DNA from: a virus
Length of the DNA stretch: 21,268 nucleotides
Strand: one strand, 5' to 3'
Virus record (IMG/VR): IMGVR_UViG_3300037584_001461
Coordinates: 1 to 21,268 of that record
Both the position numbers and the translations under genes were made by a program. Position 1 is the stretch's first letter; each line of letters begins with the position of its first letter. Positions 5,648 through 9,311 of this stretch are shown here, piece by piece. The notes under the pieces are model-generated. The model did not search any database. It saw only the letters and a list, made by a program, of their open reading frames with translations, and was not told where the DNA came from.

Positions 5648-6436
5648 ATGGCTGACACATTAACAGTTAATGATGCACCTGAAAATACTGGTGAACTTAC
5701 TAAAGAAGAACAAGATTCTTTAAAAGTAGGAGAAGAATTACAACAGGAACAGCAGGAATTATTAGCTGGTAAATATAAAAATGCTGAAGATTTAGAGAAA
5801 GCATATGTAGAACTTCAAAAAAAATTAGGAGATCAAGAACCTAAAGCAGAAGCAGAAGAGACTACTGAAGAGGAGACAACTGAAGAAGAAACAGAATCAG
5901 ATAACCCTGCATTAGATTTAATCAACGAGGCATCTGCTGAGTTCTATAAAAATGATAATCAATTGTCACCAGAGACAATAGAAAAATTCTCTCAACTCGA
6001 CAGTAAACAATTAATAAGTGCATACCTACAAAGCATTCAGAACTCACCTGAAGTACAACAACAAGCTGAGGCAGATCTAGCCCAAAAAGATATAGATCGT
6101 ATAACACAAAGTGTTGGTGGTGAATCTGAATATAAAAAAGTAACTGAATGGGCAGCAACAAATTTAAACCAATCTGAAATATCTAGCTTTGACAAAGTGG
6201 TCTCCACTGGAGATCCTAATGTCATTGAACTAGCAGTAGCTGGTTTAAAAGCTAAGTATGACAACTCCAATGGATACGAGGGTCGAATGCTGACGGGTAA
6301 AAATACAAGTACCTCTGATGTATTTAGAAGCCAAGCTCAATTAGTAGCTGCTATGGCTGATCCTCGCTACGACAATGACCCAGCTTATAGAGCTGACGTT
6401 GTAGCAAAACTTGAAAGATCAGATTTACAATTTTAA
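5648..6436 (+). CDS. Capsid assembly scaffolding protein (T7 gp9-like)
   Basis: This 262-aa, strongly acidic, helix-rich protein lies between portal and capsid, as T7 gp9 does. Residues 17-110 are rich in Glu/Gln, with repeated EETTEE units around 75-90 that give a near-tandem repeat in the DNA (about 5857-5900). The C-terminal part (about 195-262) carries AVAGLKAKYDNSNGYEGRML and ends QAQLVAAMADPRYDNDPAYR followed by ADVVAKLERSDLQF. The 'A..DPRY..DpaYr..V..kl..S' ending is characteristic of podovirus scaffolds and likely makes the capsid contact. It would be an internal scaffold lost on DNA packaging. Confidence 0.92.
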   Translation: MADTLTVNDAPENTGELTKEEQDSLKVGEELQQEQQELLAGKYKNAEDLEKAYVELQKKLGDQEPKAEAEETTEEETTEEETESDNPALDLINEASAEFYKNDNQLSPETIEKFSQLDSKQLISAYLQSIQNSPEVQQQAEADLAQKDIDRITQSVGGESEYKKVTEWAATNLNQSEISSFDKVVSTGDPNVIELAVAGLKAKYDNSNGYEGRMLTGKNTSTSDVFRSQAQLVAAMADPRYDNDPAYRADVVAKLERSDLQF

Positions 6437-6438
6437 TC

Positions 6439-6495
6439 ATGCCAAAAGGAAAAGGTACTTACGGTACTAAAAAAGGTAGACCACCTAAAAAATGA
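6439..6495 (+). CDS. Tiny basic protein, 18 aa
   Basis: ATG 6439 to TGA 6493-6495 encodes MPKGKGTYGTKKGRPPKK. It begins 2 bp after the scaffold stop and its ATGA overlaps the hli start, so the spacing is that of a coupled real gene. The frame has no room to be a shadow of another gene, because it occupies the whole scaffold-hli gap. Very short Lys/Gly/Pro-rich ORFs of the form 'MPKGKGTYG.k.GRPpKK' are, as I recall, widespread in marine phages, but their role is unknown. The GRPPKK tail resembles an AT-hook-like DNA-binding segment. That is only a similarity. Confidence 0.6.
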   Translation: MPKGKGTYGTKKGRPPKK

Positions 6496-6683
6496 AAACT
6501 AAAGACCTCGATACGCTACTCAATAACGAGTATGCGTACGAACCCCCTATACGACTTTTACCAAAACAAAAACTAATGTCACCAGAAGCAGAAAGATTTA
6601 ATGGCTGGGCAGCAATGCTTGGCTTCGTAGCAGCTCTAGGAGCCTACGTAACAACAGGACAAATAATACCAGGAATTTTTTAA
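6492..6683 (+). CDS. hli: High-light inducible protein (Hli, one-helix chlorophyll a/b-binding-like)
   Basis: This 63-aa protein has a hydrophilic N-terminus (1-32) and one membrane helix, AERFNGWAAMLGFVAALGAY (33-52), ending TTGQIIPGIF. E34 and N37 form the chlorophyll-binding ExxN motif; the position that is often Arg in 'ExxNGRxAM' is W39 here. Hli proteins sit in the thylakoid membrane, bind pigment and protect photosystems from excess light. Phage copies are thought to maintain photosynthesis during infection. It starts in the ATGA overlap with the tiny ORF and its TAA directly abuts the psbA ATG, forming an hli-psbA pair. Confidence 0.95.
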   Translation: MKTKDLDTLLNNEYAYEPPIRLLPKQKLMSPEAERFNGWAAMLGFVAALGAYVTTGQIIPGIF

Positions 6684-7766
6684 ATGGCAGCAATCTCAGT
6701 ATCAAGAGAAAGCACACAATCAAATTGGCAGAAGTTCTGCGAGTGGGTTACTAGCACAGAGAACCGCCTATATGTAGGTTGGTTTGGTGTGTTGATGATC
6801 CCTTGCTTACTAGCTGCAACTACATGCTTTATACTCGCCTTCATCGCAGCACCGCCTGTAGATATAGATGGCATACGTGAACCAGTTTCCGGTTCTTTAA
6901 TCTATGGAAACAATATTATTTCAGGAGCAGTAGTCCCTAGCTCCAATGCAATTGGACTGCACTTTTACCCGATCTGGGAAGCCGGCACTTTGGACGAGTG
7001 GCTATACAATGGCGGACCATATCAACTCATTGTCTTTCACTTCTTAATTGGAGTAGCAGCCTACGCTGGTAGACAGTGGGAACTTTCATACAGACTAGGA
7101 ATGAGACCATGGATATTTGTAGCATATACAGCACCACTATCAGCAGCTCTCGCAGTGTTCTTGGTTTACCCTTTCGGACAGGGGAGTTTCAGTGATGGTA
7201 TGCCTCTTGGTATCTCTGGTACTTTTAACTTTATGTTCGTATTCCAAGCAGAACATAATATACTCATGCACCCATTCCATATGGCTGGTGTTGCTGGGGT
7301 ATTCGGTGGATCTCTTTTCTCTGCTATGCACGGAAGTCTTGTTACTTCCTCACTTATTGCCGAAACGTCAGAGGAGGTCTCGCAGAATTATGGCTATAAA
7401 TTTGGGCAAGATGAAGAGACATATAATATTGTCGCTGCACACGGGTACTTTGGGAGATTGATATTTCAATATGCGTCTTTCAATAACTCTCGTTCTCTTC
7501 ATTTCTTTCTTGCTACTTGGCCGGTTGTTGGCATATGGCTGACATCTATGGGTATATGCACAATGGCATTCAACCTAAATGGATTTAACTTTAACCAGTC
7601 AATAGTAGATAGTAATGGAAAGGTAGTACCAACATGGGCTGATGTAGTTAACAGAGCTAACCTTGGTTTTGAGGTTATGCACGAGCGTAACGCTCACAAC
7701 TTCCCACTCGATTTAGCATCTGCTGAGTCTACAAACATTGCATTAACAGCTCCAGAAATTGGTTGA
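6684..7766 (+). CDS. psbA: Photosystem II reaction centre protein D1
   Basis: This complete 360-aa D1 protein is numbered +1 relative to the usual scheme. Key residues are intact: Tyr-Z Y162, P680 ligand H199, H191 next to Tyr-Z, non-haem iron/QB ligands H216 and H273, and manganese-cluster ligands D171, E190, H333, E334 and D343. A345 is the mature C-terminus in [10 protein letters not shown], with a 15-residue processing extension after it. The residue at conventional position 130 (Q131 here, in GRQWEL) is Gln, the D1:1-type form. Five membrane helices are expected. The phage copy would replace rapidly damaged host D1. AGGA lies about 10 bases before ATG. Codon use changes within the gene (about 7190-7550). 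Confidence 0.98.
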
Positions 7767-7810
7767 AAAATTTGTTTTATATTTAACATTAATAACTAAT
7801 CTATTTATAT

Positions 7811-7836
7811 GTTCCGGTGTCATGCGGCATTGGAAC
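7811..7836 (+). other. Stable hairpin downstream of psbA
   Basis: GTTCCGGTG (7811-7819) pairs with CATTGGAAC (7828-7836) over nine positions, two of them G.T, closing an 8-base loop TCATGCGG. No T tract follows (CAACTTACC), so it is not a classical intrinsic terminator. It could stabilise the 3' end of hli-psbA mRNA, be a processing site, or be part of the structured leader that begins 20 bases later. AT-rich DNA at 7767-7810 shows nothing else. Confidence 0.5.
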
Positions 7837-7854
7837 AACTTACCTAATCAATGT

Positions 7855-7925
7855 CCCGTCCGTTCATCCCTTATTAGGGACGCATGAAACCACAGCATGG
7901 AACGGGGTTGTGGTACTGAGGTGAA
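7855..7925 (+). ncRNA. Glutamine-II (Downstream-peptide motif) riboswitch candidate
   Basis: The conserved blocks are CCGTTCATCCC...GGGACGCATGAAACCA and GCATGGAACGG, followed by a Shine-Dalgarno sequence. Pairing seen: P1 CCGTTC (7860-7865) with GAACGG (7900-7905); hairpin TCCC (7867-7870) with GGGA (7877-7880) around TTATTA; and ACCACA (7889-7894) with TGTGGT (7909-7914), which encloses the P1 3' strand and so makes a pseudoknot. The pseudoknot helix ends three bases before GAGGTG (7918-7923), the ribosome site of the peptide at 7928. Glutamine-II riboswitches are known in marine picocyanobacteria and phage, fold as pseudoknots, and lie upstream of short ORFs. Ligand binding is expected to mask the ribosome site. 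The match is from memory of the motif. Confidence 0.8.
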
Positions 7926-7927
7926 TT

Positions 7928-8026
7928 ATGACTCAAGTAGAATTGCAAGCTCGACTTAAAGAGCAGAAAGATTTCAAAAGAGAAACTTTACTTAAGTATC
8001 GTGGCATCACATACACAAAAAGATAA
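7928..8026 (+). CDS. DUF4278-like small peptide, 32 aa, riboswitch-controlled
   Basis: ATG 7928 opens a 32-codon frame beginning MTQVELQARLKEQKDFKRE and ending LLKYRGITYTKR. The 'LkYRGvxY' ending is the hallmark of DUF4278-type mini-proteins of cyanobacteria and cyanophages. A good Shine-Dalgarno (GAGGTG, 7918-7923) lies 4 bases before ATG, one of the clearest in this window, and directly follows the riboswitch pseudoknot. The product is a charged helix plus the YRGITY tail. Its function is unknown. In this RNA family's normal context the peptide is the regulated output, so a role tied to nitrogen or glutamine status is inferred. Confidence 0.72.
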   Translation: MTQVELQARLKEQKDFKRETLLKYRGITYTKR

Positions 8027-8064
8027 TCGGTAAGCCGACTGGGAGGTGCAAGTCCTCCCTTATC
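8022..8064 (+). ncRNA. Unassigned structured RNA, compact three-way junction
   Basis: Three helices stack almost without unpaired bases: GATAA (8022-8026) with TTATC (8060-8064); TCGG (8027-8030) with CCGA (8035-8038) around TAAG; and GGGAGG (8041-8046) with CCTCCC (8054-8059) around TGCAAGT. The first helix starts at the stop codon of the 32-aa peptide. The third stem-loop looks like a tRNA T-arm (7-base loop) but no tRNA body precedes it. AAGCC (8032-8036) can instead pair with GGCTT (8070-8074), excluding the TCGG/CCGA helix. I do not match it to a known RNA family. It could be a regulatory element, a processing signal or a terminal mRNA structure. Confidence 0.5.
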
Positions 8065-8087
8065 AATTTGGCTTTTGACCCGTACGC

Positions 8088-8153
8088 GGATACTCATCAG
8101 CCGTCTAGACGGTGGGATAGACCACAAATATTAATGAGTCCAATTAAGACTCA
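8088..8153 (+). promoter_or_regulatory. Structured leader before the capsid gene with competing helices
   Basis: Two pairings compete for ATGAGT at 8134-8139. One uses ACTCAT at 8092-8097 and encloses two small hairpins: CCGT/ACGG around CTAG (8101-8112, a perfect 12-base palindrome) and GTGG/CCAC (8112-8125). The other is the local hairpin TGAGTC (8135-8140) with GACTCA (8148-8153) around CAATTAA. Both bury the ATG of the 24-aa ORF at 8134. Mutually exclusive helices around a start codon suggest regulation. Only pairing seen by eye supports this. Confidence 0.35.
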
Positions 8154-8208
8154 CAACTTTTCACGTGAAGAGACAAGTAAATATACCCTTACATTTAACC
8201 TAAAATAA
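8134..8208 (+). CDS. Putative 24-aa leader ORF overlapping the capsid start
   Basis: ATG 8134 opens MSPIKTHNFSREETSKYT and ends with TAA 8206-8208, whose last base is the A of the capsid ATG (TAATG). The same TAATG junction joins other neighbouring genes in this window (3810-3814, 9982-9986). The capsid gene lacks a visible Shine-Dalgarno, so translation could reinitiate from this short ORF. No good ribosome site precedes ATG 8134 either, and the start lies in possible hairpins. The frame may therefore be chance. I do not recognise the peptide. Confidence 0.35.
   Translation: MSPIKTHNFSREETSKYTLTFNLK
8157..8172 (+). other. Palindrome upstream of the capsid gene
   Basis: CTTTTCAC (8157-8164) and GTGAAGAG (8165-8172) are inverted repeats with one G.T pair, centred on the exact 10-base palindrome TTCACGTGAA (8160-8169). 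As RNA it would form a short hairpin with an ACGT loop. As DNA it could be a protein-binding site. It lies 36 bases before the capsid ATG. Confidence 0.35.
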
Positions 8209-9311
8209 TGGCTAATACTTTAGTTACAAGTTTAGGTAGCGTTAACAATACCAGTACAACTCCTTTGGCGTTGAACACTGCGTACGATACTAAGTATGCT
8301 ACCTATTTAAAATTATTTTCGGGTGAGCTGTTTAAAGGCTTCCAGCACAACACAATAGCTAGAGACCTTGTGATGAAGAGAACATTGAAGAACGGTAAGA
8401 GTCTTCAGTTCATCTACACAGGTCGTATGGATGCTGAGTACCATACTCCAGGAACTCCAATCCTTGGTAGTAACAACCCTCCAGTAGCTGAAAAAACTAT
8501 TGTTATGGACGACCTACTCATTAGTTCTGCATTCGTGTATGACCTAGATGAGACACTTGCTCACTACGAATTGAGAGGAGAAATTTCCAAGAAGATTGGA
8601 TATGCTCTCGCAGAAAAATATGACAGATTAATCTTCCGTGCTATTGCACGTGGAGCTAGAAAAGCACATCCAATATCTGCTACAAACAAAGTAGAACCCG
8701 GCGGAGCACAAGTACAAGTTGGTACTGGTACAGGCTCAGCTGCTGATGCAACAGATTCTGTCAAATTGAAGAATGCTTTCTATGATGCTGCACAACTTCT
8801 TGATGAGAAGGGTGTAAGTGGAGAAGGTAGAGTGGCAGTTATCGCTCCTGCTCAATACTATGCACTTATCCAAGACATCGGAAATAATGCATTAGTAAAC
8901 AGAGACGTACAAGGTACAGCTCTACAGTCTGGTCAAGGTATCGTTGAGATAGCTGGTATCAAAATCTTTAAATCAATGAATGTTCCATTCCTTGGTAAGT
9001 ATGGTACTACTACAACAAACGGTTCTTTCGTTGGCGTTTCTACAGAAGATGGTAGATCTTCAGTACAAGGTATTAATAATAACTATGGTAACGCAACTTC
9101 ATTTGCAAAATCATGTGGATTAATTTTCCAACGTGAGGCTGCTGCTGTTGTTGAAGCTATCGGACCTCAAGTACAGGTAACAAATGGTGACGTATCCGTA
9201 ATGTATCAAGGTGACATAATCCTTGGTCGTTTAGCAATGGGTGCTGATTACCTTAACCCTGCTGCTGCTGTCGAGTTACACACAACTAACTCTGCTGACG
9301 CTGCATTCTAA
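8208..9311 (+). CDS. Major capsid protein (T7 gp10-like, HK97 fold)
   Basis: This 367-aa protein forms the icosahedral shell. T7-type features include YLKLFSGELFKGFQHNTIAR near residues 32-52 (compare T7 'F...f.GEVl.aF.r.sv'), the GRMDAEYHTPGTPILGSNN stretch at 72-90, DDLLISSAFVYDLDETLAHY, and RVAVIAPAQYYALIQDIGNN near 209-228. Length fits the family (T7 gp10A is 344 aa). It is the first gene after the structured spacer and is followed 15 bases later by an intrinsic terminator hairpin, matching the high-expression layout of T7 gene 10. No Shine-Dalgarno is evident; the ATG overlaps the stop of a 24-aa ORF. Confidence 0.96.
   Translation: MANTLVTSLGSVNNTSTTPLALNTAYDTKYATYLKLFSGELFKGFQHNTIARDLVMKRTLKNGKSLQFIYTGRMDAEYHTPGTPILGSNNPPVAEKTIVMDDLLISSAFVYDLDETLAHYELRGEISKKIGYALAEKYDRLIFRAIARGARKAHPISATNKVEPGGAQVQVGTGTGSAADATDSVKLKNAFYDAAQLLDEKGVSGEGRVAVIAPAQYYALIQDIGNNALVNRDVQGTALQSGQGIVEIAGIKIFKSMNVPFLGKYGTTTTNGSFVGVSTEDGRSSVQGINNNYGNATSFAKSCGLIFQREAAAVVEAIGPQVQVTNGDVSVMYQGDIILGRLAMGADYLNPAAAVELHTTNSADAAF

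Follow-up and report, generated by a model that had tools for sequence, protein, structure and literature searches.

Genes and RNA elements between psbA and the capsid gene

The stretch of DNA analysed here (21,268 nucleotides; hereafter the window) is part of the genome of a T7-like marine cyanophage. The 441-nt spacer between its psbA and major capsid protein genes holds a riboswitch, a micro-ORF and a structured RNA, hereafter denoted the capsid-leader RNA; the closest annotated relatives of this spacer are those of P-SSP7, P-SSP2, P-SSP3 and S-RIP2. The genes and principal features are as follows, the scaffold and psbA genes being named from their sequence and from synteny with P-SSP7.

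5648–6436: scaffold gene
6492–6683: hli
6684–7766: psbA
7858–7914, plus strand: glutamine-II riboswitch aptamer (Rfam RF01704; covariation in 21 relatives)
7918–7923, plus strand: Shine-Dalgarno sequence GAGGTG of the micro-ORF, 3 nt past the last stem of the aptamer
7928–8026, plus strand: 32-aa YRG microprotein MTQVELQARLKEQKDFKRETLLKYRGITYTKR with a single C-terminal YRG unit (YRG conservation, selection and weak DUF4278 similarity)
8022–8064, plus strand: tRNA-like 5′ domain of the capsid-leader RNA (T-arm and acceptor-like pairing in the group; complete tRNAs at this place in five relatives)
8068–8126, plus strand: core of the capsid-leader RNA (covariance model R1 and covariation; no Rfam match)
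8208–9311, plus strand: major capsid protein gene (Gp10A-like, E 5.2e-72), lacking a recognisable Shine-Dalgarno sequence

This layout supports the initial annotation in that a T7-like cyanophage here encodes, after psbA and before the capsid gene, a mini-protein with a glutamine-II riboswitch. The capsid gene (start at 8208) is preceded by no Shine-Dalgarno match longer than 4 nt in any of 49 related loci, despite its presumed high expression.

The glutamine-II aptamer and its micro-ORF

A cmscan search of the whole window returned a match to RF01704 at 7858–7914 on the plus strand, which spans the full length of the model (positions 1–60) and scores 58.0 bits against a gathering threshold of 33 (E 6.6e-12), and no other Rfam match; the glnA-type glutamine riboswitch RF01739 reached 21.6 bits in the region 7700–8300, below its cut-off of 35. 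Judged by its sequence, the window aptamer is a member of the known glutamine-II class, as the initial annotation had suspected. Its helices, read from the sequence, are:

7860–7865/7899–7904, plus strand: pseudoknot, CCGTTC/GAACGG
7867–7871/7876–7880, plus strand: hairpin, TCCCT/AGGGA
7889–7894/7909–7914, plus strand: stem, ACCACA/TGTGGT

The initial annotation had taken ACCACA/TGTGGT for the pseudoknot, which is wrong: this is an ordinary stem, and its loop houses GAACGG, the 3′ strand of the true pseudoknot. It was correct that this helix ends three bases before the Shine-Dalgarno sequence (stem end at 7914, GAGGTG at 7918–7923), and the gap is 2–6 nt in most relatives that have a Shine-Dalgarno sequence.

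Across an alignment of 21 relatives, 96.3% of the cells at aptamer pairs are paired, compared with 83.1% in shuffled controls and at most 58.5% in versions of the structure slid along the alignment; two-sided changes in the stems number 45, against 10.2 after shuffling. Loss of the pseudoknot in relatives, which the initial annotation had said would count against the riboswitch, was not seen: its strands are nearly invariant (five of six pairs identical in every sequence of the alignment) and carry no covariation signal, in a set of aptamers gathered by a pattern that fixes both strands. Folded alone, with a program that ignores pseudoknots, the region 7850–7935 is no better than its shuffles.

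The class is known to bind L-glutamine and to act as an ON switch (PMC6698751, PMC6316151), probably at the level of translation (PMC6698751). The ligand stabilises the pseudoknot and, in the published model, makes the ribosome site accessible (PMC6698751). A simple folding comparison of 147 aptamer–ORF junctions revealed no systematic opening of the Shine-Dalgarno sequence or the AUG in the bound state, and the attempt to derive ON or OFF from folding was dropped; the direction of switching therefore rests on the literature for relatives.

Above the RF01704 cut-off, a single copy is present in seven of nine phage genomes checked, with a partial copy in an eighth; isolates with the riboswitch include P-SSP7, P-SSP3, S-RIP2, NATL2A-133 and P-GSP1. 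A wider set of 163 distinct phage aptamers was collected by pattern from phage records and IMG/VR contigs. In this set, 158 closely precede a YRG micro-ORF and the other five run off the end of their contig, such that the YRG motif is universal (158/158) where enough sequence is available.

In the window the micro-ORF starts with the ATG at 7928 and stops at 8024–8026, and its ribosome-binding sequence GAGGTGA is the longest Shine-Dalgarno match among all of the window's genes. Between nearest neighbours, codons that differ by one base do so synonymously in a fraction of 0.66, compared with 0.22 expected, and within the YRG portion of the long class described below this fraction is 0.88; this excess indicates that the peptide is a selected product. 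The 32-aa ORF claimed in the initial annotation is thus real, on the strength of the window's best ribosome-binding site and of purifying selection. Micro-ORF lengths, which rest on a mechanical choice of start codon, range from 9 (cut by a contig end or stop) to 84 residues, nearly all lying between 12 and 43, and the shortest complete examples have about 13–14 residues. Two phage forms can be distinguished, one of about 13–20 residues with little beyond the YRG unit, the other of about 32–43 residues with a charged N-terminal stretch; the window's micro-ORF is of the longer form. It contains KYRGITY at residues 23–29, which matches the YRG..Y motif, and ends three residues past this unit.

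Given the late-operon position right before the capsid gene, the riboswitch could instead act directly on the capsid operon, through its transcription or through translation running into it, with the micro-ORF as a bystander. We regard this as very improbable: the aptamer abuts the micro-ORF Shine-Dalgarno sequence at similar spacing whatever comes after, and the capsid gene is distant in many phages.

The capsid-leader RNA

Downstream of the micro-ORF lies a second structured RNA, missed in the initial annotation; nearly all of the cyanopodoviral relatives examined have it in front of the capsid gene. Its core comprises:

8070–8073/8099–8102 and 8076–8078/8094–8096, plus strand: first stem
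8080–8089, plus strand: UACG hairpin
8101–8112, plus strand: palindrome CCGTCTAGACGG
8112–8115/8122–8125, plus strand: last hairpin

Eight of nine phage genomes each have one mismatch-free copy of the core element GACGGTGGGATAGACCAC, before the capsid gene; in the ninth, P-GSP1, a core copy was found by covariance model. Model R1, built without the window, recovers the window copy with 64.8 bits (E 1.4e-15 to 1.5e-14), and RNAalifold arrives at the same core fold unprompted. Within a set of 26 sequences, 94.1% of cells at core pairs are paired (78.8% when shuffled), and 61 changes affect both sides of a pair, compared with 20.5 after shuffling. Of 128 parsed sequences, 108 have CG as the third pair of the first stem, 9 have TG, 7 AT and 4 TA, so that it is paired in all of them. 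The inner hairpin takes the form of 18 different helices in the same sequences, mostly with UACG loops, although the parser picked this hairpin by complementarity. The last hairpin is invariant in the 26-sequence set, with both sides changed in the divergent contigs L012, L013 and L014. We are highly confident that the capsid-leader RNA is real.

At gathering thresholds, no Rfam family beyond the aptamer was matched in the region 7700–8300 of the window, and none in the L008 locus. The capsid leader of L074 gave sub-gathering Rfam fragments only, the best of which (E 0.31) is a T-arm match of 17 nt to tmRNA. None of 30 phage records matching the capsid-leader RNA annotates it as a feature. A pattern search permitting one mismatch showed the core to be absent from 101 Prochlorococcus genomes, and a model search, run without a positive control, did not find it in six genomes of the RCC307 genus. 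The element is apparently undescribed in the open-access literature searched, though earlier descriptions may exist.

Two other readings of this region were rejected. A resemblance between GGGATAGACCACAA and the 5′ end of T7 phi10 transcripts had prompted a promoter reading of the core, but each genome has a single exact copy, located before the capsid gene, and the stems covary. Translation of 8068–8208 as a 46-aa ORF with a TTG start is contradicted by helix lengths in relatives, which shift by 2 nt and so break the frame; the ORF has no family match.

The palindrome centre CCGTCTAGACGG is self-complementary in nearly every version seen (about ten), for example CCGTCATGACGG, CCGTCGACGG and CCGCAGCTGTGG, the last with wobble arms. 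Such a centre would be consistent with dimerisation or with a binding site of two-fold symmetry.

The 5′ domain, directly upstream of the core, is tRNA-like in the window:

8022–8026/8060–8064, plus strand: acceptor-like helix, GATAA/TTATC, containing the micro-ORF stop
8027–8038, plus strand: small hairpin
8041–8059, plus strand: T-arm-like hairpin, GGGAGG-TGCAAGT-CCTCCC

Relatives have in this place either a complete tRNA, a fold resembling one, or a single kind of alternative hairpin. Rule-based sorting of 177 unique copies assigned 85 to a T-arm-like hairpin with a tRNA-type 7-nt loop, 91 to the alternative hairpin and one to neither. An acceptor-like helix of at least 5 bp accompanies 55 of the 85, compared with a mean of 24.8 and a maximum of 33 on swapped strands; that of the window has 5 bp only. 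ARAGORN finds no tRNA in the window and a complete cloverleaf is lacking, and we accordingly rejected calling the window's 5′ domain a tRNA. In five contigs (L012, L101, L105, L107 and L145) a complete tRNA ends directly before the core; that of L012 lies at 2813–2883, tRNA-Gly (UCC) is among the five, and ARAGORN calls Leu in L101 and L105. The alternative hairpin is built around CACCTCAG[A/T]GTCGGA and is perhaps a minihelix mimic; it occurs once per genome in the four isolate and fosmid genomes that have it. It replaces the T-arm upstream of the core in L003, L005, L007, L008, L009, L013 and others.

tRNA-like processing signals are familiar from tRNA punctuation and from mascRNA at the 3′ end of MALAT1. 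The capsid leader would resemble these in having its structured RNA immediately preceded by a tRNA or tRNA-like fold; the likeness is one of analogy and not of membership, as the mascRNA covariance score of L074 (15.7 bits against 42.5) is at chance level.

The position of the micro-ORF stop relative to this fold suggests a further possibility. At 53 of the 56 loci with both the tRNA-like form and an adjacent micro-ORF, the window included, the stop lies inside the domain, 6–32 nt before the T-arm, whereas at loci with the alternative hairpin its distance scatters from 7 to 1071 nt. In the window the stop codon TAA (8024–8026) falls within the acceptor-like strand (8022–8026). In the window's lineage a terminating ribosome would thus be expected to open the domain. 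The micro-ORF might accordingly be mainly a leader, whose glutamine-gated translation ends in the tRNA-like domain and so prevents or alters the way in which the capsid mRNA folds or is processed; the peptide would then be of secondary importance. The stop positions and the shortness of the smallest complete micro-ORFs are as such a leader would have them; yet a pure leader would need neither the purifying selection on the peptide nor a YRG motif common to host proteins, many phages have the riboswitch and micro-ORF hundreds of bases from the capsid leader, and the overlap could merely reflect compact genomes. On balance we consider it unlikely that the micro-ORF is principally a leader.

Cyanobacteria have both RNase P and RNase Z (PMC10989914). 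The capsid leader may set the 5′ end of the capsid mRNA or its translation, for example via one of these host enzymes. That glutamine-gated translation of the micro-ORF alters the fate of the capsid mRNA through the tRNA-mimic leader, giving virion production a nitrogen-status input, is a tentative proposal to which we give a low probability.

Host counterparts and a proposed role for the switch

In picocyanobacteria, DUF4278 proteins are encoded behind type 2 glutamine riboswitches (PMC6316151). Host psbA loci led to 12 genomes, 10 of which contain RF01704, in up to five copies. Behind several of the Prochlorococcus copies lie either 33-aa ORFs carrying two YRG units or longer, three-unit ORFs, and the two host YRG sequences scored against DUF4278 exceed its cut-off (33.4 and 42.9 bits); other host copies front ORFs without YRG. 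In L376, L385, L387, L388 and L389 a host RF01704 copy precedes a different protein of 53–56 residues (MNELSQIREKI...PYRRSVFEERI), which lacks YRG.

The phage micro-ORF is like the host DUF4278/YRG microproteins (PMM1846 and the N-terminus of IF17) in its YRG..Y motif, the aptamer in front and its small size (PMC6316151). Unlike the host proteins, which have two or three units and pass DUF4278, it has one unit and falls short of the cut-off: DUF4278 (PF14105) scores 13.9 bits against the 32-aa ORF (E 0.071; curated cut-off 25.3), the match covering only the last 12–20 of the 57 profile positions. The phage ORFs tested score 13.9–18.7 bits on the last part of the profile, apart from two without a match. 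The description ‘DUF4278 mini-protein’ thus holds as a resemblance, through the YRG..Y motif, and not as membership. Glutamine synthetase, which the initial annotation had mentioned as a possible target by way of cyanobacterial precedents, is unsupported in this role: the DUF4278 part of IF17 has been described as dispensable for its function (PMC6316151), which weakens the idea, and the glutamine synthetase-inhibitory region that lies beyond the DUF4278 part in IF7/IF17 is absent from the 32-aa ORF.

We favour, with good confidence, a phage glutamine-II riboswitch that acts as a translational ON switch for the 32-aa YRG microprotein, the latter being a reduced copy of host proteins and probably their mimic or competitor. 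At high glutamine, the aptamer and its pseudoknot would fold, rendering the Shine-Dalgarno sequence 3 nt downstream usable so that the 32-aa protein is made; without ligand, this sequence would be occluded. The product would be a one-unit version of the host's glutamine-switched YRG/DUF4278 microproteins and most likely acts at the same host partner as they do. The absence of a folding signal at the 147 junctions, and the host aptamers that precede ORFs lacking YRG, count against this reading. Glutamine binding and ON behaviour are taken from the literature; the aptamer, its conservation, the ORF, the selection on it, the pairing of aptamer with YRG and the host counterparts are computed.

It is about an even call whether the riboswitch and YRG ORF are a host-derived cassette, kept for a general nitrogen-status function unrelated to the capsid, with the site after psbA serving as a hotspot for auxiliary genes. 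Hosts have the same aptamer and YRG motif; psbA is found within 700 nt of 79 of the 125 aptamers whose upstream sequence is long enough, and NATL2A-133 has other small genes between the riboswitch cassette and the capsid gene. A host origin of this kind does not account for why one phage group has a fixed overlap between micro-ORF and tRNA-like domain. It is compatible with, and not opposed to, the ON switch for the YRG microprotein that we prefer.

Relative to the Downstream-peptide motif RF01704, the window copy is alike in sequence, stems, pseudoknot and position before the Shine-Dalgarno sequence of a short ORF (PMC2864571), and differs in lying in a phage genome, within the late structural operon, and before an ORF cut to one YRG unit. 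Other marine phages with glutamine aptamers have been described, among them T4-like cyanophages and Melnitz on OM43 (PMC9602691, PMC9964418, PMC9004378); where a type is given it is glnA, in myoviruses, and the Melnitz copy is linked to a tmRNA gene. We found no published description of this cyanopodovirus RF01704 copy in the open-access literature. The suggestion that the locus is an undescribed regulatory system thus stands in part: the riboswitch class has been described before, as have its activation by glutamine and its short downstream peptides, whereas the covarying RNA before the capsid gene appears undescribed. A one-unit YRG target common to marine cyanopodoviruses appears to be new, judged by the open-access literature.

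Abundant ocean phages carry a metabolite sensor and, with it, a pared-down form of the host protein under its control, and the one-unit phage protein offers a short handle on YRG/DUF4278 function. As the riboswitch is present in cultured isolates, it can be tested in existing phage–host pairs. The capsid-leader RNA, for its part, would represent a novel type of phage 5′ leader, one joined to tRNAs.
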